From Faecalicoccus pleomorphus DSM 20574 (GTDB taxonomy: Bacteria > Bacillota_I > Bacilli_A > Erysipelotrichales > Erysipelotrichaceae), in assembly GCF_000420345.1 (NCBI RefSeq), contig NZ_ATUT01000001.1:62001-126000 (forward strand): a stretch of 64,000 nucleotides of DNA, read 5' to 3'. Every line of letters begins with the position of its first letter. Position 1 is the first letter of the stretch. A model generated the notes under the pieces. The model worked only from the letters and a program-made list of their open reading frames with translations, made no database searches and was not told the origin of the DNA. The position numbers and the translations under genes were made by a program. Of the stretch, positions 19,675-43,360 are shown piece by piece.

Positions 19675-19681
19675 TTAACTA

Positions 19682-19880
19682 CGGCTAAGAAGAGAAAGAG
19701 TACATAGTGTCTTTCTTTACAGAGAGCGACTGTTTGGTGCAAGGTCGCAGGAAAGTCTATGGAATACACCTTGGAGCTTCATCATGACGTATGTCTGCGT
19801 TAAAGACTAGAGTGCATACTTTTTGTATGAAGTAAGGTGGTACCGCGTTGATAACGTCCTTATAGAAGGACGTTTTTTTT
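19682..19880 (+). promoter_or_regulatory. T-box leader (tyrosine) controlling tyrS
   Basis: AGAGAG and TTTGGTG stem I motifs, the specifier codon TAC (19765-19767, Tyr) after GGAA, and the T-box AGGTGGTACCGCG (19835-19847) are all present, with a terminator before the gene. Confidence 0.94.
19853..19880 (+). terminator. T-box regulated terminator of tyrS
   Basis: AACGTCCTT pairs with AAGGACGTT around ATAG, followed by eight T. Confidence 0.92.
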
Positions 19881-22969: not shown

Positions 22970-22984
22970 TACTGCTCCTTTTTA
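22953..22984. terminator. Terminator shared with the convergent aro operon
   Basis: AGCAGTATC (22953-22961) pairs with GATACTGCT (22968-22976), with T's on the plus side and A's on the other. It contains the stop codon of the metallopeptidase gene. Confidence 0.85.
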
Positions 22985-23995
22985 TAATTCGCGTCCAATA
23001 ACTTCGGCAATTTTTCTTCCTTTTTGAACCAGACTGGCATATTTTTCCGGTTTTAGACTTTGATCACCATCGCTCCATGCACATTCCGGATTGTCATGTA
23101 CTTCTATGATCAGGCCATCAGCACCTGCGGCAATCGCAGCTAAAGACAATGATTCAATCAGTTTCCAGTCACCGGCCGCATGACTTGGATCGATAATGAT
23201 TGGCAGATGTGTTCTTTCTTTAATAATAGGAATGACCGCAAGATCCAAGGTGTTTCTTGTCATAGTCTCGAAGGTTCGAATTCCTCTTTCACAGAAAATC
23301 ACATTCGGATTTCCTTCGGACATGATATATTCGGCAGCCATGATCCATTCGTTGATCGTATTGGCTAATCCGCGTTTTAGTAAAACCGGTTTTTTGGTTC
23401 GTCCGACGGCTTTCAATAGATCAAAATTCTGCATATTTCGTGCTCCGATCTGAATGATATCCACGTTTTGAACAAATTCATCCAAGTGTTCTACAGCCAT
23501 CAATTCACTGACAATTGGAAGACCGGTCTGTTCTCTGGCGATACACAGATCGTTGATTCCCTCAGTTCCTAAACCCTGGAAAGCATAAGGGCTGGTTCTT
23601 GGCTTATAGGCCCCTCCGCGAAGCATGTCAGCTCCACAATTTTTAACTTCGTTGGCAATGCGGGTGATTTGTTCTTCTCCTTCAACACTGCAGGGGCCGG
23701 CAATCATTACGATCTTTTTGCCACCGATCTGGATGCCATTTACATCAATAATGGTATCCTCCGGATGAAATTTTCGATTGACTAATTTATAGGGTTCATC
23801 CACTCGCTGTACATTAGCAACGATGGGGTTGGCCATGACATTTTTCTCATCGACTTTTGAGGTATCTCCAACTAAACCAAAAACATTGTAGTTTTCTCCG
23901 TAAATCACAGTGACCTGCAATCCCATGTTCTCAAAACGATGGATCAGCTGATCGATTTTTTCTTGTTGGGCTTCTTTTTTTAAGGTAATGATCAT
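22982..23995 (-). CDS. aroF: 3-deoxy-7-phosphoheptulonate (DAHP) synthase (337 aa)
   Basis: This enzyme joins PEP and erythrose 4-phosphate in the first step of the shikimate pathway. An N-terminal ferredoxin-like regulatory region (residues 1-70) precedes the barrel, as in the Bacillus/Thermotoga type. The barrel shows MIAGPCSVEGEEQ, LRGGAYKPRTSPYAFQG, RGIRTFET and DPSHAAGD, which hold the metal and PEP ligands. Its ATG overlaps the stop of the aroE-aroK gene in ATGA (23992-23995), and an AGGAGG lies nine bases upstream, so the two are coupled. The N-terminal domain of this type often allows feedback by aromatic amino acids. Confidence 0.96.
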   Translation of the reverse strand: MIITLKKEAQQEKIDQLIHRFENMGLQVTVIYGENYNVFGLVGDTSKVDEKNVMANPIVANVQRVDEPYKLVNRKFHPEDTIIDVNGIQIGGKKIVMIAGPCSVEGEEQITRIANEVKNCGADMLRGGAYKPRTSPYAFQGLGTEGINDLCIAREQTGLPIVSELMAVEHLDEFVQNVDIIQIGARNMQNFDLLKAVGRTKKPVLLKRGLANTINEWIMAAEYIMSEGNPNVIFCERGIRTFETMTRNTLDLAVIPIIKERTHLPIIIDPSHAAGDWKLIESLSLAAIAAGADGLIIEVHDNPECAWSDGDQSLKPEKYASLVQKGRKIAEVIGREL

Positions 23996-25275
23996 ATGGT
24001 TTTTCCTCCTGTACAAATTAAATCTTGTATATGGTCTTTTACTTTTTGAATACTTGTTTGAGAAATTTTATTTAAATTGGTATTGTTTACAATTTGAATG
24101 TCACTATATTGAAGATAATAAGGCATCCGTTGATGATACATGTCTTCCACCGCTTTTTGACTGCTGGAAAGAGGACGGTTAGGATCATTGGATTCCAACA
24201 GATTCAAATCACGATCCAGAAAGATCAAAATACCGTTTAATCGCAACATATCGATGTTGATTTTGTTTTTGATGATGCCACCGCCACAGGCAATCACCAG
24301 ATTTTGGTTGGCACTGATACGTTTTGTAACCTTAGTCTCCAGTTCTCGAAATACAACTTCTCCGGATTCGGCAAAGATTTCTGGTATGGTTTTCTTCGCT
24401 TCTTTTTCGATTTCATCATCCAAATCGATAAATTTCTTTTGGGAAAGCTGTGCTACTTTTTTTCCTATGGTACTTTTACCACAGCTAGGCATCCCGATAA
24501 AAACCAGATTTGTTTTTTCCATCAATAAATCAAATAAGATTTGATCGATCACTTTTTGCGGTGTCGTATCTTGTAGAAAATGTTCTTTGGCACGAATGGC
24601 CTGTACGATCAACATTTCCATTCCTGTTGCATACAACAATCCTTTTTCTCGGGCCTGCAGGCAAAGCTTGGTACAGATTGGATTATAGACAACATCCAAT
24701 ACCGCTTTACACTTAGGAAAGTCATTTAAATCAACAGCCTGTTCATCAATATGAGGATACATACCGACAGGCGATGTGTTGATGATGATATTCGCATCGC
24801 AATGGCTGGTATAGACTTCCTTGTAGGAAATCGCATCATCTTTTGGATGACGGGATACACAAAGAATCTGTTTGGCGTTATGGTTTCTGCAGACTGCTTT
24901 AATAGCTGCCGCAGCGCCTCCGTTTCCTAAAACCAATACTTTTTGATTTTGGATGGGGACATGATGATGTTGAATCATATAATCAAATCCATCATAATCT
25001 GTATTGTATCCATAAAGCTTTCCATCACGATTGACGATCGTATTGACAGCACCGATAGCTTTGGCATTTTCATCTATAAAATCCAAATAGGGAATGACTG
25101 TCTTTTTATACGGAATTGTTACATTGATGCCTTTAAAGTCTTTTTGTCGTAAAAAATAATCAAGATCCTCTTCATCTAAGGGCATTAACTCATACGTATA
25201 GTCTGCCAGTTTTTCATGAATGATCTTAGAAAAACTATGAGATAATGGTTTTCCGATTAGTCCATACTCGCTCAT
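23992..25275 (-). CDS. Fused shikimate dehydrogenase and shikimate kinase (427 aa)
   Basis: Residues 1-250 are shikimate dehydrogenase (AroE): the substrate motif PLSHSFSKIIH, Lys-containing NVTIPYKK, NTDYDG and the NADP-binding VLVLGNGGAAAAI are all seen. Residues 252-427 are shikimate kinase (AroK): Walker A GMPSCGKST, DLDDEIE, FRELE, CGGGII and the lid region DPNRPL. The frame is continuous with no internal ribosome site before Met252 (minus position 24522), so it is a true fusion. One protein thus catalyses reduction of 3-dehydroshikimate and phosphorylation of shikimate. AAAGGAGG precedes the ATG. The leader upstream contains a short peptide gene and a terminator. Confidence 0.95.
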   Translation of the reverse strand: MSEYGLIGKPLSHSFSKIIHEKLADYTYELMPLDEEDLDYFLRQKDFKGINVTIPYKKTVIPYLDFIDENAKAIGAVNTIVNRDGKLYGYNTDYDGFDYMIQHHHVPIQNQKVLVLGNGGAAAAIKAVCRNHNAKQILCVSRHPKDDAISYKEVYTSHCDANIIINTSPVGMYPHIDEQAVDLNDFPKCKAVLDVVYNPICTKLCLQAREKGLLYATGMEMLIVQAIRAKEHFLQDTTPQKVIDQILFDLLMEKTNLVFIGMPSCGKSTIGKKVAQLSQKKFIDLDDEIEKEAKKTIPEIFAESGEVVFRELETKVTKRISANQNLVIACGGGIIKNKINIDMLRLNGILIFLDRDLNLLESNDPNRPLSSSQKAVEDMYHQRMPYYLQYSDIQIVNNTNLNKISQTSIQKVKDHIQDLICTGGKTI

Positions 25276-25293: not shown

Positions 25294-25331
25294 AAATAAA
25301 AAAGCACCATGTTGGAAATGCCATGATGCTT
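25294..25331 (-). terminator. Leader terminator of the aro operon (attenuator)
   Basis: On the minus strand AAGCATCATG (25331-25322) pairs with CATGGTGCTT (25311-25302), with one G-U, followed by six T. It ends just before the aroE-aroK ribosome site, so readthrough must be controlled. Confidence 0.8.
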
Positions 25332-25334
25332 AAA

Positions 25335-25378
25335 AGCCCCGAAAAAGAACCAGTTATAAAAACGGCTTTTTCAGGGCT
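25335..25378 (-). promoter_or_regulatory. Hairpin between the leader peptide and the attenuator
   Basis: AGCCCTGAAAAAG (25378-25366) pairs with CTTTTTCGGGGCT (25347-25335), 13 bp with one G-U. Its 5' arm overlaps the stop codon of the leader peptide, so a ribosome stopped there would prevent it from forming. I could not show by hand that it excludes the terminator. Confidence 0.65.
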
Positions 25379-25424
25379 ATTTAAAGGTAAACATAAAATA
25401 AGAAACAGATATTAAATTTTTCAT
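25377..25424 (-). CDS. Aromatic leader peptide of the aro operon (15 aa)
   Basis: A short frame encodes MKNLISVSYFMFTFK, with one Tyr and three Phe in its last seven residues. AAGGTG lies eight bases before the ATG, and a promoter lies just upstream, so the 5' leader is only about 15 bases. Its TAG stop overlaps a stable hairpin, and a terminator follows before aroE-aroK. This is the layout of a ribosome-stalling attenuator in which lack of Phe or Tyr would raise expression of the shikimate genes. Confidence 0.65.
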   Translation of the reverse strand: MKNLISVSYFMFTFK

Positions 25425-25444
25425 AAGTTTTCACCTTATGAAAA
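25418..25444. promoter_or_regulatory. Perfect 10-bp inverted repeat at the aro transcription start
   Basis: TTTTCATAAG (25418-25427) and CTTATGAAAA (25435-25444) are separated by seven bases. The repeat covers the predicted start site and the leader peptide's ribosome site, so it may be an operator, a hairpin, or both. Confidence 0.5.
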
Positions 25445-25445
25445 T

Positions 25446-25474
25446 AATTTACAATACAATGTTTTAAAAATCAA
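25446..25474 (-). promoter_or_regulatory. Promoter of the aro operon
   Basis: On the minus strand TTGATT (25474-25469), a 17-base spacer and TAAATT (25451-25446). Confidence 0.6.
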
Positions 25475-25511: not shown

Positions 25512-25527
25512 AATAAAGGTGATAACG

Positions 25528-26271
25528 ATGAATAGAATACCATGGAATCCTAAAAAACCGAAGATTTGTGTACCCATCATGGAAAAGACAGCACAGGAAG
25601 TCCTAGAACAAGCTCAGAAAGTGTCTAGCATGAATATTGATTTAGTTGAATGGCGCATAGATGCCTTTGATCATATAGAAGATCTCTCAAAATGTATCGA
25701 GCTTGCCCTGGCTGTAAAAGAACAACTGGGACAAATTGATTTGTTGATTACATGCCGTACCCAAAAAGAAGGAGGCTTCTTTGAAGGAAACAAGACCTTT
25801 TACAAAGAGTTATATCATACCATCTGTACCAAACAAGCAGCGGACTTGATCGACCTGGAATTTGATTGGGGTAATGATGTCTTTGAAATGTTGCTTCCTA
25901 TCGCAGGCCAACATCAAATTCAAGTCATAGCTTCGCATCATAATTTTGTTAAAACACCTTCTAAAGAAAAAATACTGCATAAACTAATGGTTATGAAAGA
26001 GTCGAAAGCTGATATTTTAAAAATGGCTTGCATGCCGCAAAACAAACAGGATGTTTTTGTCTTGATGGCAGCCACTGCTGCTTTTAAAGAAAGATTTCCG
26101 GATGTGGTTCTCGTAACGATGGCAATGGCAAAAGAGGGAATGCCATCAAGAATTTTAGGTGAATTCTTTGGCAGTGCGATAACTTTTGCATCAGCCGGCA
26201 AACAAAGTGCACCGGGACAAATTGATGTGGATACGATGCGCTTCTTGATCGATACACTGCATTTATTATAA
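25528..26271 (+). CDS. aroD: 3-dehydroquinate dehydratase, type I (247 aa)
   Basis: This enzyme dehydrates 3-dehydroquinate to 3-dehydroshikimate through a Schiff base. The Schiff-base Lys165 lies in DILKMACMP and the catalytic His is in ASHHNF (137-138). VEWRID near residue 43 and the C-terminal SAPGQID motif are also typical. Length is normal for type I. ATG 25528 follows AAAGGTG by a few bases; GTG 25519 is inside that site. It is transcribed divergently from the aroEK-aroF operon, which carries the neighbouring pathway steps, and ends in a strong terminator. Confidence 0.95.
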   Translation: MNRIPWNPKKPKICVPIMEKTAQEVLEQAQKVSSMNIDLVEWRIDAFDHIEDLSKCIELALAVKEQLGQIDLLITCRTQKEGGFFEGNKTFYKELYHTICTKQAADLIDLEFDWGNDVFEMLLPIAGQHQIQVIASHHNFVKTPSKEKILHKLMVMKESKADILKMACMPQNKQDVFVLMAATAAFKERFPDVVLVTMAMAKEGMPSRILGEFFGSAITFASAGKQSAPGQIDVDTMRFLIDTLHLL

Positions 26272-26435: not shown

Positions 26436-26511
26436 AAATATGTGACTTAAAATGTTATTTAGTCAAATAATTCATTTTTGTTGCTTTACTAAAAAGAGAG
26501 GTAGTGAAGAA

Positions 26512-29500
26512 GTGAAAAAACATCAAAAAGTTATTTTGGCTTCCGTTGTAACGGCAAGTCAGGCTGCTACGGTTTTGAACATTCCGATTTCTGTGATGGC
26601 ACAAGAACCAGATCTTACAAGATCAAACTATAATACCGAAAATAAAGCGGTACAACCTAAAAGTGGGTACACCTTTATTGGAGCACCCAAAGGTATGCCT
26701 GAAGTATCCAATAATGTGGTAACAGTATCGTATGCCAATGGAGAAAAGGCTAAAATCACATTTTTAGAAAACAATTTGTTTCGTTTTGACATGGAAGTCG
26801 ATGGAAAAGAGGAAAGCTTTAAAGAGTATGTAGATCCAACCGATGCATTGCATACCGGAAGAATTGTTCAACAACCGGATTCATCCGATGAGTATAGTAA
26901 ACCAACTCCTACATTAAGTGAAACCGAAGAGGCTTATATTATTCAAAACGATGCGATCATCCTGGAAATTGCCAAAGCGGATTCACGCATGACGTTAAAA
27001 AGAAGCGATGGCACGATTGTCTGGCAGGAAGCCAAACCTATCCAGTATCAAAATGGAAGTACGATTCAATCGTTTGTGAAAAACGATGGTGAAAACTTCT
27101 ATGGAGGAGGTACACAAAACGGACATTTTGTCCACACCGGAGAATCAATTAAGATTGAAAATTTAAATAACTGGGTCAGTGGTGGTGTTTCGAGCCCGAA
27201 TCCTTTCTATTGGTCCACTAGTGGTTATGGGGTTTTGCGAAATACATTTAAAAAGGGTGTGTATGATTTTGGAAAAACAGAAGGTGATGTCGTCAGTACA
27301 TCACATAGTGAAAAAAGATTAGATGCTTACTATTTTGTAGCTGATACACCGGTCAGCCTTCTTCAAAATTATTTTAAGGTAACAGGCAATCCGGCCTTAT
27401 ACCCGGAAGAAGCTTTCTATCTGGGACATCCGAATTGTTACAACCGGGATGAATGGGTAGAAGGTGGTAATACTCCATTAGAAACGGTAAACGACAGTAC
27501 CAAATATCAGGAAATCAATAATGGTGGAAAAGTTAAAAAAGGCGGTGTCTTGGAAACTTTAAATGGAACCAATGATACCGATTATAAATTCTCGGCTCGT
27601 GGTGTCATTGATCAATATGAAAAATACGATATGCCTTTAGGCTGGTTTTTACCTAATGATGGCTATGGTTGTGGATACGGAAAAGATGATACCAACCTTG
27701 ACAACAACATTGCCAACTTAAGAAGTTTTACAGATTATGCCAATTCAAAAGGAGTTGGTACCGGTCTTTGGACACAGTCGGATCTAACACCAAATCCAAG
27801 TCAGCCGATCCATCTACAGCGCGATTTTGAAAAAGAAGTCAATCAGGGTGGTATTCGTACTTTAAAAACCGACGTAGCCTGGGTAGGTTCCGGTTATTCT
27901 TTTGGATTAAACGGAATCAGTAAAGCTTATGATATCATCACAAAAGCGGACAGTAAAAATCGTCCAACCATCGTTACCTTAGATGGCTGGGCTGGAACCC
28001 AGCGTTATGCGGGAATCTGGACTGGGGATCAGACCGGTGGAAACTGGGAATACATTCGCTTCCATATTCCGACTTATATCGGACAAAGTTTGAGTGGAAA
28101 CCCGAACGTATCCAGTGATGTGGATGGAATCTTTGGCGGTGGTTCTTTAGTTTATACTCGTGATGTACAATGGAAATCATTTACGACAATGTTGTTGAAT
28201 ATGGATGGATGGGGATCGTATCCTAAAAAGCCTTATGTCTTTGGAGAAGATACTACATCTATCAACCGTATGTATTTAAAGCTGCGCTCACAGCTGATGC
28301 CGTACATTTACTCGACAGCCTATACTTCCGCTAACTTAGGAGAAGATGGTGAAAAAGGAAAACCGCAGGTTCGTGCCATGTTCTTAGAATATCCTGATGA
28401 TGCCAATACGTATGGGAAAAACGTACAGTATCAGTTTATGTTAGGAAAGAACTTGCTAGTTGCACCGGTTTACCAAGATACGGCAGCGGATGACCAGGGA
28501 AATGATATTCGTAATGGAATTTATTTACCCGATGCCAATCAAGTATGGATCGATTACTTTACCGGCAAACAATACCAGGGTGGTACGACGCTAAATAACT
28601 TTGAGGCGCCGATCTGGAAACTTCCTCTATTTGTCAAAAATGGGGCGATTCTTCCAATGACGGAAGCTCACAACAATGGTTTTGCCAAATCAGAGACAAA
28701 CACGAAAGGTGTTGATAAGTCTAAACGGATTGTGGAATTTTATCCGGCCGGACAAACGGATTATACACTCTACGAAGATGCCGGAAATACGATAGATAAC
28801 TCCAATCCAGAAGAAGTCAATTATGGACCAGTGGTTACAACACATTTTACCAGTGATGTCACAGGTGATAAAGCTATCTTAAAGGCTGAAGCCAGTCAGG
28901 GAAGCTACGTGGGTTATGATGCCAATAAAGAAACGCAATTTGTCGTCAATGTCAGTGAAAAACCAAAAGCAATTGCGGCAACAGTTGGAAATACTGATGC
29001 CGGATTAACAGAAGTACATTCACAAGAAGAATTTGAGAAAGCCCAGGGCAATGTTTATTACTACAATGAAAGTCCGAATTTAAATCAATTTGCGACACCG
29101 GATTCCGATTTTGCTTCTGTTAAAATTACAACAACACCAAAACTGTATGTCAAATTTGCAAAGAGTGATGTGAGTGCCAATGCGATCACATTAACTTTGG
29201 ATGGTTTTAAAAATGATGGAAATTTGGATAAAAATCAGTTAAACGCTAATCTGAAAGCACCGGAAAATGTAAGAGCTCCTGAAGAAGAAATTACACCGGA
29301 TACAATTCAGTTAAAATGGGATGAAGTGACTGATGCGACAAGCTATGAAGTCGAAGCCGATGGTATCATTCAATCGGGCATTACAGAACCAACGTTTACT
29401 CATACAGATTTAGCCTATCATTCCAAACATACGTATCGTGTACGCGCAAGAAATAAAGACGGGTATTCACAATGGAGCAAACCATTAGAAGCACAATCTG

Positions 29501-32500
29501 CATTGGATCCATATCGTAACGTGCCAAAAGATATCAAAGTGACCTGGGATTATGGAGATAATTGGGGTAAAATTGCCAATATCCTTGACTTTGATACCGG
29601 AACAATGTTCCACTCTACAAATGCGGTACAAGAAGGACAGGCTTTGATTTATGATCTACAAAAAATTTATGATTTAGATCGTATTGAATATACACCACGT
29701 CAGGATAATAAAGGTAATGGTACCGTTCAGAAGATGGACGTATATACCTCTTTAGATGGAACCAATTGGAACTTAGCCTATGATTCCAGTAAAAACAAAG
29801 AATGGACATACAGTAATGATATGAGTGAGCCGGATATCAAAACAATGGACATGACCGGACAAAAAGCACGATATATCAAATATGTGGTTAAAAAATCAAA
29901 AGGTGGTTTTTTCTCGGCAGCTGAATTACAACCTTATAAAGTGGATGGTACCGAAGGTTATCTGGTAGGGGATACCAATAACGATGGTGTTGTGGATGAT
30001 AATGATTTAGTACAAATTAATAACTATGTCGGTTTGGAAAACGGTGATCCGACTTGGGATCAGGTGAAGCGTTCTGACTGGAATGCCAATGGCTATTTTG
30101 ATGCGGCAGATATTGCTCAAACGACCTCACGTTTAAATAAAGGCATTTCTAAAAAGGGTGAAGATCCTAAGGGGTCTTTAGTCATTGAACCGGATAAAGC
30201 ACATTACAATGCCGGCGATAAAGTTATCTTATCCATTAAAGGCATCAACATGGAAAATGTATATGCCTTAGGTGGTAAGCTTCCTTATAACAGTGCTGAA
30301 TTGCAGTTTGTCAGTGTTACCTCGGATGTTGCAACCGGTAATCAACGTGAGTTTGTCTTTGATCGTATTGCGTATCAAAATCAACAGCATCCAGATAAAA
30401 ATCGCAATGTGAACTTTGCCTACAGCAATTTAGGCGATCAGGCGATGCTGTCAGGAACCAACCGTTTGGCAACGGTAACCTTTACAGCTAAAAAAGATTT
30501 GGATATCAAAGCCAGTGATTTTAATATCTCTAATTTCATGTTTGTCAGCAACAATATGAACTTTATCGATCCTTTACAGCCATCGCAGGATCTTCCGGAA
30601 CCGGAAACCGAATCAAAGATTCAGGTACAGTCCGTACAGGGACAGGATGAATCAGTATTACAGGCCGGTATGGGTGTTGATAAGTTGATTGATGGTGCCT
30701 GGGGCGGTGATCCTAATCGCTTTGAATTTAAATGGGGCAATGATGAAGCCAGTGTACCGGCCAGATTGCCATATTGGATTCGTTTCAATTTTGGTGAAAA
30801 GAAGAAAGTATCGGATGTGATCATTCATGTTCGTGTCGATGGAACGAGAATCAACGGTGGCGCCTTAAAGGATTTTGAATTGTATCGTATCAATAATGAC
30901 GTCGAACAAAAGGTCGGAAACTATACGATCGATAAAACGGATGATGATCATGCGTACATCGTTCATTTTACAGAACCGGTACAGGCGGATGGATTTAAAT
31001 TAAACGCATTGACAAGCCAGGCAGGTCAAATCTTTAAATTGAACATTGATGAAGTGGAATTTAGACAAAATGCACAAATTCCGGTAGAGGATATCGTTTT
31101 GGATGAAGCCAATCCAACAACACTGAATGTTGGAGATCTCAAAGGTTTTGGCGCAACCATTGCACCGGAAGATGCGACCAACAAGCTCATCAAGATAGAA
31201 AGCTCTGATCCGGAAGTCTTAGAAGTTATTCGTACCAATGCAGGTGATCATTATACTTATATACTGCATGCCTTGAAACAAGGTACAGCTGCATTAACGA
31301 TTACATCGAATGGAAATACGGCGCAGGGACAGCCGGTGACAAAACAAGTGGAAATCACGGTTAATGAGGCGGTTACTTCTAAAGAAGAATTAGAAGCGAA
31401 TATTGAAGAAGCAAATACGATCTTAGAAAACGAAAATCTTTATACCAACACATCGTTAGATGTATTAAAGAACGCTTTAAAACTGGCCAATGATATCGAT
31501 CAGAAAGAAGATGCCACACAAACAGAAGTCAATGCACAGGTCGTACAGCTCTTTAAAGCTATTCAACAGTTAGAATATCGCGGCTCTAATGAAGGACAGC
31601 CAGACAGTGAAAATCCAATTGCGGTCGATCCGGAAAACGTGACGGCGACAACATCGGCTTCTGAAGGACCGGTGGAAAACGCATTTGATGGTGATAAAGC
31701 TACTTATTGGCATTCCGGATGGGAGCAGGGAACGGAGAAACTGCCACAGAGTGTAACCATTGATTTAGCGGATGAATACGATGTGGAACAAGTCAACTAC
31801 TTGCCTCGTCAAGGAAGCCGAAATGGAGACATCATCAAATATCAGATCGAAACAAGTGAAGACGGAGAAACCTTCAAGCCTGTTGTAGTGGGCACGATTG
31901 AAAATGATGGATCTTCCAGTGTGGAAAGAACACAACCACATAAGATCAAATTTGATAAAACAAAAGCACGTTATGTACGCATTACTGCTCTGGAGTCTTT
32001 AGGGAATCAAAATAACTTATATGCCTCGGCGGCTGAGTTCATTATTTTTGGTGCTTTGCATTCCGATGCGATTCCAGCCACTTCAATCGAATTGGACAAA
32101 ACGGAATTAAAATTGGATGCCGGAAATACGGAGACTGTAACGGCCACCATTCTGCCGGAAGATACAACAGATACTATCACTTGGGAATCTTCGGATCCAA
32201 GCATTGCCAGTGTGGAAGCTTTAGGACGTCGTCGAGTACGAAGAGATGCCAATGCATCGACAAATACAAGCACGGTGACTGTAACCGCCTTAAAAGCTGG
32301 TACGGTTACCATTACGGCCAAGGCTAATGATACCGTCAGCAAAACCTTAACAGTGACTGTCGAAAATCCAAAACAAGAACAATTAGCAGAATTGATCGAA
32401 CAAGCAAAAGGTGTGAAATACGAAAATGCAGCTTTGCAGGATTATCTGACATCTGAAATTGAAAAGGCCACACAAGCTTTAGATCAAGATCAGGACACTC

Positions 32501-33897
32501 TGCAAAATGCGTATTATGCCTTAGCGGGTGCTCTTTCGGAAATTGAAGAGATTCAAAAAGATATCGAACAGCTCAATAGCTTTAGCAACATAGACGATTC
32601 TCGTTATGTCCCTAACGAACAATATCAAATGTTTAAAGAGCAGCTGCAATTAGCACAGAATTTATTATCCGATCCGGTGCAGAATAAAGAACTGATCAAA
32701 ACACATGTGGATGCATTAAAGAAAGCTTTCGCACAATTGGAAGAATTAGATCGAGAGAAATTATCAAATGCCATTCAGGAAGCAGAAAAAGTAAATCTGC
32801 AGGATTGTGTAGAGGATGATGCCTTATCCGCATTTAAAACCGCTTTAGAGAACGCAAAAGCGGCTAATCCGCAATCCAATGAAGAAATTGATACCCTGGT
32901 AAACACTTTATTGGAAGCACAGGCAGGCCTACATTTTAAAGATGAAAATTTGGCCACTGACGATCAAAAAGAATCCATTCAACATGCTTTGGATGTGTTA
33001 AAGAATTTGGATTTAGATCTGTATTCAAAACAAGATGGAAAAGCGATCAAAGCTGCCATTTCGGATGGTAAAGATGCCCTGGCTAATAAAGATCTGACTA
33101 AAGAAGAGGCTTCTAAGGTGATTGAGGATTTGGCAAAAGCACTTTCTTTAGAACCTAAGGAAGTGATACCAGAAGAGGAGCCTGCAAGTTCTACGCAAAA
33201 AGAAGTGATTACCAAAGCTTTGGATATCTTAAAAGGTCTGGATTTAAACTTGTATGATACAAAGGCTCAAAGTGTAATCCAAGAAGCGATCGAAGAAGCA
33301 CAAAAGGCTGCTGACAACGATCAGTTGACCAAGGAAGAAGCGGCAGGTGTACTAGAACACTTGGCCAATGCATTATCTATACAACCAAAAGAAGATACAC
33401 CAAAAGATGAAAAGGCTACTTCCACACAAAAAGAAGTGATTGAGAAAGCATTGGATATTCTAAAAGGTCTGGATTTGAACCAGTATGAGGCTAAAGATGC
33501 TGATTTGATCAAAGAGGCTATCGAGGCGACTCAAAAAGCACTGGAAAACAAAGAGCTGACATATGCGGAAGCCACTGATATGATTGAAAAAATCGCACAG
33601 GCGCTTTTAGTTACACCAAAAGAAACAGAACAGCCAAATCCATCGGATAATGAAAATCCAAATACCAATACACCAGATCATGGACAAAACAATTCGACGG
33701 ATACAAGTGCCAATGGATCCAATAGTGTCATAGTCAATCCTACTGATTCTTCGAAATCAAAAGGAAACACAAAAACCGGTGTACATTCCTTTGTCGGCTT
33801 GTTTGCGGCTTTGGCCACATCGGCGGCTGCCACTGCTGGTACAGTGACTCTTCTGAAAAATAAGAAGATTCGCATACGCCGTAAAGGAAAGAAATAA
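26512..33897 (+). CDS. Giant secreted GH31 glycoside hydrolase with CBM32, dockerin- and cohesin-like domains (2461 aa)
   Basis: A signal peptide (residues 1-29) leads to a GH31 catalytic region (about 50-780) with nucleophile Asp454 in LKTDVAW and acid/base Asp506 in IWTGDQTGG. Then come FN3 (916-996), F5/8C/CBM32 (998-1148), a dockerin-like pair of calcium loops (DTNNDGVVDDND and DWNANGYFDAAD, 1149-1210), a cohesin-like domain (1222-1353), a second discoidin-like domain (1368-1520), a bacterial Ig domain, FIVAR, a third CBM32 (1702-1850), a second Ig domain and several FIVAR-like helical repeats. Three of these repeats of about 80 residues are near copies (2143-2376). The tail NTKTG-hydrophobic-RIRRKGKK resembles a variant sortase signal. 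GTG 26512 is chosen for the signal peptide start. GH31 acts on alpha-glycosides; alpha-N-acetylgalactosaminidase action on mucin is possible but unproved. Confidence 0.93.
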   Translation: MKKHQKVILASVVTASQAATVLNIPISVMAQEPDLTRSNYNTENKAVQPKSGYTFIGAPKGMPEVSNNVVTVSYANGEKAKITFLENNLFRFDMEVDGKEESFKEYVDPTDALHTGRIVQQPDSSDEYSKPTPTLSETEEAYIIQNDAIILEIAKADSRMTLKRSDGTIVWQEAKPIQYQNGSTIQSFVKNDGENFYGGGTQNGHFVHTGESIKIENLNNWVSGGVSSPNPFYWSTSGYGVLRNTFKKGVYDFGKTEGDVVSTSHSEKRLDAYYFVADTPVSLLQNYFKVTGNPALYPEEAFYLGHPNCYNRDEWVEGGNTPLETVNDSTKYQEINNGGKVKKGGVLETLNGTNDTDYKFSARGVIDQYEKYDMPLGWFLPNDGYGCGYGKDDTNLDNNIANLRSFTDYANSKGVGTGLWTQSDLTPNPSQPIHLQRDFEKEVNQGGIRTLKTDVAWVGSGYSFGLNGISKAYDIITKADSKNRPTIVTLDGWAGTQRYAGIWTGDQTGGNWEYIRFHIPTYIGQSLSGNPNVSSDVDGIFGGGSLVYTRDVQWKSFTTMLLNMDGWGSYPKKPYVFGEDTTSINRMYLKLRSQLMPYIYSTAYTSANLGEDGEKGKPQVRAMFLEYPDDANTYGKNVQYQFMLGKNLLVAPVYQDTAADDQGNDIRNGIYLPDANQVWIDYFTGKQYQGGTTLNNFEAPIWKLPLFVKNGAILPMTEAHNNGFAKSETNTKGVDKSKRIVEFYPAGQTDYTLYEDAGNTIDNSNPEEVNYGPVVTTHFTSDVTGDKAILKAEASQGSYVGYDANKETQFVVNVSEKPKAIAATVGNTDAGLTEVHSQEEFEKAQGNVYYYNESPNLNQFATPDSDFASVKITTTPKLYVKFAKSDVSANAITLTLDGFKNDGNLDKNQLNANLKAPENVRAPEEEITPDTIQLKWDEVTDATSYEVEADGIIQSGITEPTFTHTDLAYHSKHTYRVRARNKDGYSQWSKPLEAQSALDPYRNVPKDIKVTWDYGDNWGKIANILDFDTGTMFHSTNAVQEGQALIYDLQKIYDLDRIEYTPRQDNKGNGTVQKMDVYTSLDGTNWNLAYDSSKNKEWTYSNDMSEPDIKTMDMTGQKARYIKYVVKKSKGGFFSAAELQPYKVDGTEGYLVGDTNNDGVVDDNDLVQINNYVGLENGDPTWDQVKRSDWNANGYFDAADIAQTTSRLNKGISKKGEDPKGSLVIEPDKAHYNAGDKVILSIKGINMENVYALGGKLPYNSAELQFVSVTSDVATGNQREFVFDRIAYQNQQHPDKNRNVNFAYSNLGDQAMLSGTNRLATVTFTAKKDLDIKASDFNISNFMFVSNNMNFIDPLQPSQDLPEPETESKIQVQSVQGQDESVLQAGMGVDKLIDGAWGGDPNRFEFKWGNDEASVPARLPYWIRFNFGEKKKVSDVIIHVRVDGTRINGGALKDFELYRINNDVEQKVGNYTIDKTDDDHAYIVHFTEPVQADGFKLNALTSQAGQIFKLNIDEVEFRQNAQIPVEDIVLDEANPTTLNVGDLKGFGATIAPEDATNKLIKIESSDPEVLEVIRTNAGDHYTYILHALKQGTAALTITSNGNTAQGQPVTKQVEITVNEAVTSKEELEANIEEANTILENENLYTNTSLDVLKNALKLANDIDQKEDATQTEVNAQVVQLFKAIQQLEYRGSNEGQPDSENPIAVDPENVTATTSASEGPVENAFDGDKATYWHSGWEQGTEKLPQSVTIDLADEYDVEQVNYLPRQGSRNGDIIKYQIETSEDGETFKPVVVGTIENDGSSSVERTQPHKIKFDKTKARYVRITALESLGNQNNLYASAAEFIIFGALHSDAIPATSIELDKTELKLDAGNTETVTATILPEDTTDTITWESSDPSIASVEALGRRRVRRDANASTNTSTVTVTALKAGTVTITAKANDTVSKTLTVTVENPKQEQLAELIEQAKGVKYENAALQDYLTSEIEKATQALDQDQDTLQNAYYALAGALSEIEEIQKDIEQLNSFSNIDDSRYVPNEQYQMFKEQLQLAQNLLSDPVQNKELIKTHVDALKKAFAQLEELDREKLSNAIQEAEKVNLQDCVEDDALSAFKTALENAKAANPQSNEEIDTLVNTLLEAQAGLHFKDENLATDDQKESIQHALDVLKNLDLDLYSKQDGKAIKAAISDGKDALANKDLTKEEASKVIEDLAKALSLEPKEVIPEEEPASSTQKEVITKALDILKGLDLNLYDTKAQSVIQEAIEEAQKAADNDQLTKEEAAGVLEHLANALSIQPKEDTPKDEKATSTQKEVIEKALDILKGLDLNQYEAKDADLIKEAIEATQKALENKELTYAEATDMIEKIAQALLVTPKETEQPNPSDNENPNTNTPDHGQNNSTDTSANGSNSVIVNPTDSSKSKGNTKTGVHSFVGLFAALATSAAATAGTVTLLKNKKIRIRRKGKK

Positions 33898-42422: not shown

Positions 42423-43136
42423 ATGTTTATTGCCCGTTTACAAGATCAATTTGATTTTGTAGAACAAAGGCAGATGCCGGTCCTGACCTCTTTTTTAACG
42501 CCTGTCGAACAAAGAATCATGATGCGGCAGGCGCCCAAGAATCTTTTTATCTCTTTTTATGGCGGTTACAAACATGCGATTCGCAAGATGGCTTGTATCC
42601 AGACAATGGATTTGGAACCCAATTATGATTATGTGATCTTAAAGAGTATATATACACCGCAGAAACGAAGTTGTACCCATAAAGACGTGTTGGGTGCATT
42701 GATGCATTTAGGCCTGCAAAGAAACCAGTTGGGCGATATTTTTGTCGATGATACGCAGATCCTTTTGGTCTGCAAGGAAGGCTTGGCAGAATTTATCTGT
42801 CGGGAATGTCATAAAATTGCCAATGCCTTTGTTGATTTTAAAGAAGATTATTCTGTTGAGTTTCCGGCGGCGGCCGCTGAAATCGTTACCGTTCATGTTG
42901 CTTCGCTTCGCATGGATGCGATTGTAGCGGCTCTGGCGCATTGTTCACGCTCCAAAGCTATGGACTTGTTGAAAAGCGGATGGGTGAAGTTGAACGATGT
43001 TGTTCTTGAAGAAAACGATAGATTATGTAATAATGATTACGTTTCTATACGTAAAACAGGTCGGTTTCAATTTTTAGGTGTGGAAAGCCGCACACGAAAA
43101 GACAGACTGATTTTACGTTTTGAGAAATATGTATAG
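42423..43136 (+). CDS. ylmH: S4-domain RNA-binding protein YlmH (237 aa)
   Basis: YlmH binds RNA and, in Bacillus, can act with or in place of RqcP in ribosome quality control. The C-terminal S4 domain (about residues 158-230; ASLRMDAIVAALAHCSRSKA, SGWVKLNDVVLEENDRL) is clear, and the N-terminal part matches the family around VLTSFLTPVEQRIMM. ATG 42423 is seven bases after AGAGG. ATG 42363, inside sepF, would add 20 residues and is the alternative, as it gives the more usual length of 257. The RqcH gene is elsewhere in this window (53440-55074). Confidence 0.88.
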   Translation: MFIARLQDQFDFVEQRQMPVLTSFLTPVEQRIMMRQAPKNLFISFYGGYKHAIRKMACIQTMDLEPNYDYVILKSIYTPQKRSCTHKDVLGALMHLGLQRNQLGDIFVDDTQILLVCKEGLAEFICRECHKIANAFVDFKEDYSVEFPAAAAEIVTVHVASLRMDAIVAALAHCSRSKAMDLLKSGWVKLNDVVLEENDRLCNNDYVSIRKTGRFQFLGVESRTRKDRLILRFEKYV

Positions 43137-43139
43137 GCG

Positions 43140-43360
43140 AAGACAAAGACAAGTCGGTTTCTACATGTTTCAATCAGAGAGCAATCGGTTGGTGAAAAGA
43201 TTGTATGAGACAGGACACCGGTATCCCTTTGGAGCTGAATTTCTGAAAACAGAGTAAGAAATTCCGGATAATTCCGTTATCTTATTGAGGTGCGCAGTTT
43301 TTAACTGTGAACTAAGGTGGTACCGCGTTAATTACGTCCTTGGAAAAGGGCGTTTTTTTT
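43140..43360 (+). promoter_or_regulatory. T-box leader (isoleucine) controlling ileS
   Basis: AGAGAG and GGTTGGTGAAAA stem I motifs, the specifier ATC (43223-43225, Ile) and the T-box AGGTGGTACCGCG (43315-43327) are present, with a terminator before ileS. The promoter is not clear and may lie at the end of ylmH. Confidence 0.93.
43334..43360 (+). terminator. T-box regulated terminator of ileS
   Basis: ACGTCCTT pairs with AAGGGCGT (one G-U) around GGAA, followed by eight T. Confidence 0.9.

Follow-up and report, generated by a model that had tools for sequence, protein, structure and literature searches.

In the 64-kb stretch of DNA analysed here (the window), a short minus-strand leader upstream of shikimate genes constitutes a well-supported putative leader-peptide attenuator that senses Phe and Tyr. 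The best explanation of its architecture, in which we place considerable confidence, is ribosome-mediated transcription attenuation that responds to the supply of both amino acids. The leader opens with a promoter of the sigma-70 type (TTGATT-17-TAAATT, 25446..25474, minus strand), read from the sequence, in which the -35 element TTGATT (25474-25469) and the -10 element TAAATT (25451-25446) are separated by a 17-nt spacer. This promoter agrees with the consensus at 8/12 positions, a moderate match that scored under the cut-off of our promoter scan and is hence absent from its list. Transcription is expected to start at about 25439 on the minus strand, which leaves some 15 nt of 5' UTR that include the Shine-Dalgarno sequence AAGGTGA (25431..25437) of a leader peptide ORF (25377..25424). 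This ORF, which runs from the ATG at 25424 through codons 25424-25380 to a TAG stop at 25379-25377, encodes the 15-codon peptide MKNLISVSYFMFTFK, with Tyr at codon 9 and Phe at codons 10, 12 and 14. The 5' arm of a hairpin (P, 25335..25378, minus strand; 18 pairs, -20.6 kcal/mol when folded alone) begins within the stop codon, and 3 nt past P, without overlap between the two, begins an intrinsic terminator (T, 25294..25331, minus strand), which consists of a stem at 25331-25302 (AAGCATCATG..CATGGTGCTT, -12.2) and a U tract that extends to 25294. The 162-nt leader as a whole folds with a z-score of -4.5 relative to dinucleotide shuffles, with 0/200 shuffles being equally stable. The promoter, ribosome site, 15-codon peptide, stop-overlapping hairpin and terminator had all been proposed in a first-pass annotation of this DNA, and their coordinates were confirmed to the base.

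The terminator thus lies between the leader ORF and the first gene under the proposed control, a fused aroE-aroK (aroEK; 23992..25275, minus strand) that encodes a shikimate dehydrogenase and shikimate kinase of 427 aa in all (Pfam Shikimate_dh_N and SKI). The first-pass annotation had correctly placed the terminator just before aroE-aroK; what it named as two genes is in fact this single fused ORF. The second gene of the presumed operon encodes a DAHP synthase of the aroF/G type (22982..24016, minus strand) and overlaps the end of aroE-aroK by 25 nt. Divergent from the leader lies aroD (25519-26271, plus strand), and beside aroD there is a 2481-aa ORF (26452-33897, plus strand), whose product appears to be a secreted glycoside hydrolase, anchored to the wall and containing repeats.

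When we looked for the leader in relatives, we found the peptide and hairpins to be conserved, the opposite of the outcome that the first-pass annotation had named as speaking against its reading. The same layout lies directly 5' of aroEK in seven related genomes, with peptides such as MNNSRQYYYYFK, MKQTSSKFYFYFR, MKVFSSNYFYFFNS and MKQFANSYFYFYSK, and inspection of the regions upstream of aroB across the order added about 19 further leaders. In aroB-aroC-aroEK operons the leader is found at the operon head (L035, L037, L039, L042, L043 and L044). A covariance model (R2) built from 21 leaders was then searched in 145 genomes of the family, representing 59 genera, and matched 37 of these genomes in 21 genera, with the window copy recovered at an E value of 8.8e-12. 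Altogether the family holds about 48 leaders, ahead of aroEK, aroB or a DAHP synthase gene, and all in-family matches whose downstream gene was read precede one of these three, bar one. Two matches were set aside as chance hits: one in genome G010 that precedes a ferritin-like gene, and a second one in the source genome (C1:314346, E 0.2) near ribosomal-protein genes.

Several relatives carry more than one leader. DAHP synthase has its own in G024, G144 and G170, of which G024 and G144 also have one at aroEK, while G069, G101 and G062 have leaders at both aroEK and aroB. The relatives' DAHP synthase leaders are located at L131 (1501-1628, minus strand), L132 and L155; in the window there is one leader, and the DAHP synthase gene lies behind aroEK. 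In genomes G001-G004 (L012, L014, L023, L048-L051) we also observed second aroE-like copies, adjoining or away from the leader-controlled aroEK fusion, which is the more diverged copy in these genomes; the extra copies point to a possible duplicate with an altered role. A skipping-rope RNA (RF02924) lies at L037 12124-12201 (minus strand), close to the leader-bearing aroB operon of G027.

Strong R2 matches were restricted to the family when 296 genomes of the class were searched, and the four weak matches outside it equal the number expected by chance. One weak outside match (L157 1501-1557, plus strand), in genome G368 from another family of the class, looks real: it comprises a leader-like ORF, MKKIFNSYFYYYFYYPRT, with a good promoter and ribosome site, ahead of genes for an ABC-transporter substrate-binding protein and a permease, which may form an operon for the uptake of aromatic amino acids with a similar attenuator. 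In the order's second family (f2), no leader was found in the available stretch 5' of aroB at 30 loci, several of them shortened by a contig end. Many contigs of this family (L055-L084) end a few hundred bases 5' of aroB, hinting at repeated sequence there.

We next turn to the RNA structure, for which 21 leaders were aligned. P and T together comprise 15 modelled pairs, and 95% of the cells in these columns are paired. Two-sided changes occur in 13 of the 15 pairs (5/6 in P, 8/9 in T), with 53 such cells compared with 11.9 in shuffles (0/500); the alignment had been fitted to the P/T structure and is hence biased in its favour, yet the excess is large. The pairing signal of P and T was lost when the partner strand was slid. 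In addition, pairing of the 5' arm of P with its downstream duplex partner gave a z-score of -3.5 in the 21 leaders and -4.7 in 16 further leaders, which form an independent set. The position of P is also constant: in 21/21 leaders of the window type, a distance of 1-5 nt separates its start from the opening base of the stop codon, and the lower part of its 5' arm would thus be covered by a ribosome that has reached the stop. The gap between P and T is 1-8 nt in 20/21 of these leaders (median 4), though the length of P varies widely, and this short, constant spacing suggests a steric effect of P on closure of the base of T.

The peptides themselves have a simple composition. In 48 leaders (46 distinct) we counted 121 Phe, 126 Tyr and 0 Trp among 587 residues, equivalent to 42% Phe plus Tyr, and both Phe and Tyr are present in 47/48. 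Codons for the end products are thus clustered in a short ORF throughout the 48 leaders, translation of which is predicted. The peptides are short and their C-terminal half is aromatic in every case, while the aromatic residues vary freely in order, number and position (YYYYF, FYFYF, SYFMFTF, AYAYYFTF and RYYFFYF); comparison of the 48 leaders revealed no other conserved feature. Such variable order and spacing, with nothing else kept, fits a mechanism that counts charged tRNA-Phe and tRNA-Tyr and not a fixed arrest peptide.

The leaders fall into two architectures, which were separated by eye prior to testing. In the 37 leaders of the window type, including the window copy, pairing between T and any other segment was no stronger than in shuffles: competition with T gave z-scores of +0.4, -0.2 and +0.25 in 21 leaders and, when this negative result was repeated on the fresh set of 16, +0.1, +0.6 and -0.2. 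Among specific candidates, we rejected pairing of the last codons with the foot of T (CUUUAAA : UUUUAAG in L004; CxT z -0.2 and +0.6), pairing of the 3' arm or upper stem of P with T (MxT z +0.4 and +0.1) and pairing with the region 3' of T, which was no better than in shuffles. P was likewise rejected as an independent terminator, since a U4 run follows it in some leaders only. T is therefore predicted to form in window-type leaders regardless of where the ribosome stands. The classical attenuation layout that the first-pass annotation saw in this leader holds for the Phe/Tyr peptide, the hairpin masked by a ribosome at the stop and the terminator, but not for an antiterminator that competes with T, and we do not count the leader in the window among the classical attenuators.

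A sister architecture, in which an antiterminator and the terminator are mutually exclusive, is present in several genera before aroB (L035, L039, L042, L087, L091, L094, L099, L101 and perhaps L096). Here the segment before T can pair with any of three partners: the last codons and stop, a segment past the stop, or T. In L101, for example, pairing by eye joins UUUUAGAUAAUG : CAUUAUCUAAAA at the last codons and stop, or GGCAUUAUC : GAUAAUGCC with T, and in L035 the pre-T segment can be aligned, again by eye, with T as GGCUGAUAUC : GGUAUUAGCC. L086 reads as a direct three-segment switch, in which the stop-overlapping pairing GAGGUUGCC : AAGCAACC is set against AAGCAACC : GGGUUGCUU. Across the sister type, pairing of the pre-T segment with T reached a mean z-score of -2.2 against shuffles and was negative in 9/9.

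Folding with the ribosome-covered region masked, as the first-pass annotation had suggested, left the terminator of the window leader unchanged. The same was true of species with a clear antiterminator, and because equilibrium masking of the full leader had no effect in any species it is uninformative. As a replacement we folded transcripts ended before the 3' arm of T. In L035, L039, L087 and L099, T then paired upstream over 11-16 nt with the ribosome on early aromatic codons, and this pairing fell to 2-8 nt with the ribosome at the stop; there was no such fall in L042 and L094, and only a small one in L101. The 3' strand of P in some aroB leaders (L035, L039, L087, L099 and others) can pair instead with T as a textbook antiterminator.

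Taken together, these data can be accommodated in the following scheme. RNA polymerase would start just 5' of the peptide ORF, and a ribosome would load immediately and translate the 15 codons. With ample charged tRNA-Phe and tRNA-Tyr, the ribosome would reach the stop and cover the 5' arm of P (12 nt post-stop), T would form and transcription would stop ahead of aroEK. If Phe or Tyr ran short, the ribosome would stall 4-20 nt further upstream, on the aromatic codons, and leave P free, and transcription would continue to aroEK and the DAHP synthase gene. We infer the direction of the response, the translation of the peptide and the effect of P on T. P should favour readthrough, because starvation calls for an active biosynthetic operon and P is free at an early halt and masked at the stop. 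For the window type, the mechanism we tentatively prefer is that P, once formed, would sterically hinder closing of the base of T in the polymerase exit channel. We tentatively consider that leaders of this type may represent a ribosome-controlled attenuator without a base-pairing antiterminator, in which P, about 4 nt from T, directly alters termination by being formed or masked, through steric or stacking effects in the exit channel.

P could also act in the opposite sense, an alternative that we think rather unlikely. P and T would then form a composite terminator; a ribosome stalled on the last aromatic codons would mask the 5' arm of P and weaken termination, and one that finished the peptide would leave quickly and let P form. 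A stall at the last Phe codon (codon 14) would already cover the first bases of the 5' arm of P, and the tight spacing of P and T is compatible with coaxial stacking, but stalls at the earlier aromatic codons would leave P free, and the leader of L086 and the aroB sister leaders follow antiterminator logic. A different signal is conceivable as well, if the aromatic nascent chain bound free Phe or Tyr and arrested the ribosome, much as TnaC does with Trp, in place of a response to uncharged tRNA. Short peptides with an aromatic C-terminal half in all leaders would suit such a sensor; the free variation of the aromatic residues, with nothing else in the peptide conserved, makes it highly improbable.

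Two further readings would make the peptide incidental. The short ORF might be a bystander in a structured RNA with a metabolite or protein as its ligand, a view favoured by P and T being the helices with the best conservation. However, Rfam, including Phe_leader and other leader families, gave no match at the gathering score and none at E values up to 1 at ten leader loci, conservation is confined to plain helices and does not extend to their loops, and the Phe/Tyr codon content would be left unexplained, so we regard this reading as extremely improbable. The leader might, finally, be a chance ORF preceding an ordinary terminator. Evidence from the window alone does not make it certain that the leader is more than this, and a looser scan of its 64 kb, which is AT-rich, picked up several short aromatic ORFs ahead of terminator-like folds elsewhere. 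It is conservation in relatives that places the leader above chance: a strict scan found a leader before aroB at 16/37 loci (12.2 kb in all) and a single instance in the remaining 297 kb, P and T covary, and the arrangement recurs at three aro loci in 21 genera. These comparative data already refute the chance reading, and we accord it virtually no probability. The preferred reading remains an attenuator controlled by a ribosome that senses Phe and Tyr supply.

These leaders define a common aromatic pathway regulon for one Gram-positive family, some species of which carry two peptide leaders per genome, and they extend the few known leader-peptide attenuators of Firmicutes to Phe/Tyr and to shikimate genes. 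Since two architectures, with and without a pairing antiterminator, occur in one family, the long-standing assumption that mutually exclusive hairpins are needed for attenuation becomes testable.

The closest known system in E. coli is the pheA (pheL) attenuator, in which a peptide of about 15 aa rich in Phe codons is followed by overlapping 1:2, 2:3 and 3:4 segments. The window family likewise places a peptide of similar length ahead of aromatic biosynthesis genes, but combines Phe with Tyr where pheL has Phe only. The usual Firmicute solution for sensing aminoacylation by attenuation is the T-box (RF00230), which binds tRNA directly and involves no peptide. T-boxes gave no match at the leader-bearing aro operons and three matches elsewhere in the window (19678-19864, plus strand; 2212-2415; 43131-43344). 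One precedes tyrS and, read by eye (GAATACACC), has the likely specifier UAC (Tyr), so that the source genome has a Tyr T-box 5 kb from the Phe/Tyr leader peptide. The first-pass annotation had called ribosome-mediated attenuation uncommon in Firmicutes, a view tempered by published cases in bacilli, Erysipelotrichales, Peptostreptococcaceae and Listeria and by a candidate at Acholeplasma aroF. His leader peptides have been described at the his operons of Erysipelotrichales, Peptostreptococcaceae and the B. cereus group (PMC9413887, 2022) and before hisZ/hisS* in bacilli (PMC2965389, 2010); these are likewise Firmicute leader peptides, in part from an order to which the source genome may itself belong, to judge tentatively from its gene content and T-boxes, but differ in their His codons, their his genes and their reported terminator/antiterminator pairs. 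In Listeria monocytogenes, mutations have shown ribosome-mediated attenuation by Rli60 at ilv-leu, with a 13-aa leader peptide (PMC5864092, 2018); this system responds to branched-chain amino acids through overlapping terminator/antiterminator hairpins that are absent from the window leader. A further close system is the uORFC-13-1 motif, a candidate Phe uORF attenuator before Acholeplasma aroF for which control by ribosome speed has been proposed (PMC8632094, 2021). It too has a Phe uORF with a promoter, an RBS and an adjacent terminator ahead of a DAHP synthase gene; compared by description only, it is reported solely from Acholeplasma and environmental sequences (24 representatives), solely at aroF and with at least one Phe codon, whereas the window-family leaders have Phe and Tyr, occur at three aro loci and belong to another family. 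Our literature search, whose coverage excluded most subscription journals, found no paper describing these Phe/Tyr leaders. They differ from the published Firmicute leaders in lacking an antiterminator in the window type, in their host family, in their use at three shikimate loci and in their predicted joint sensing of Phe and Tyr.
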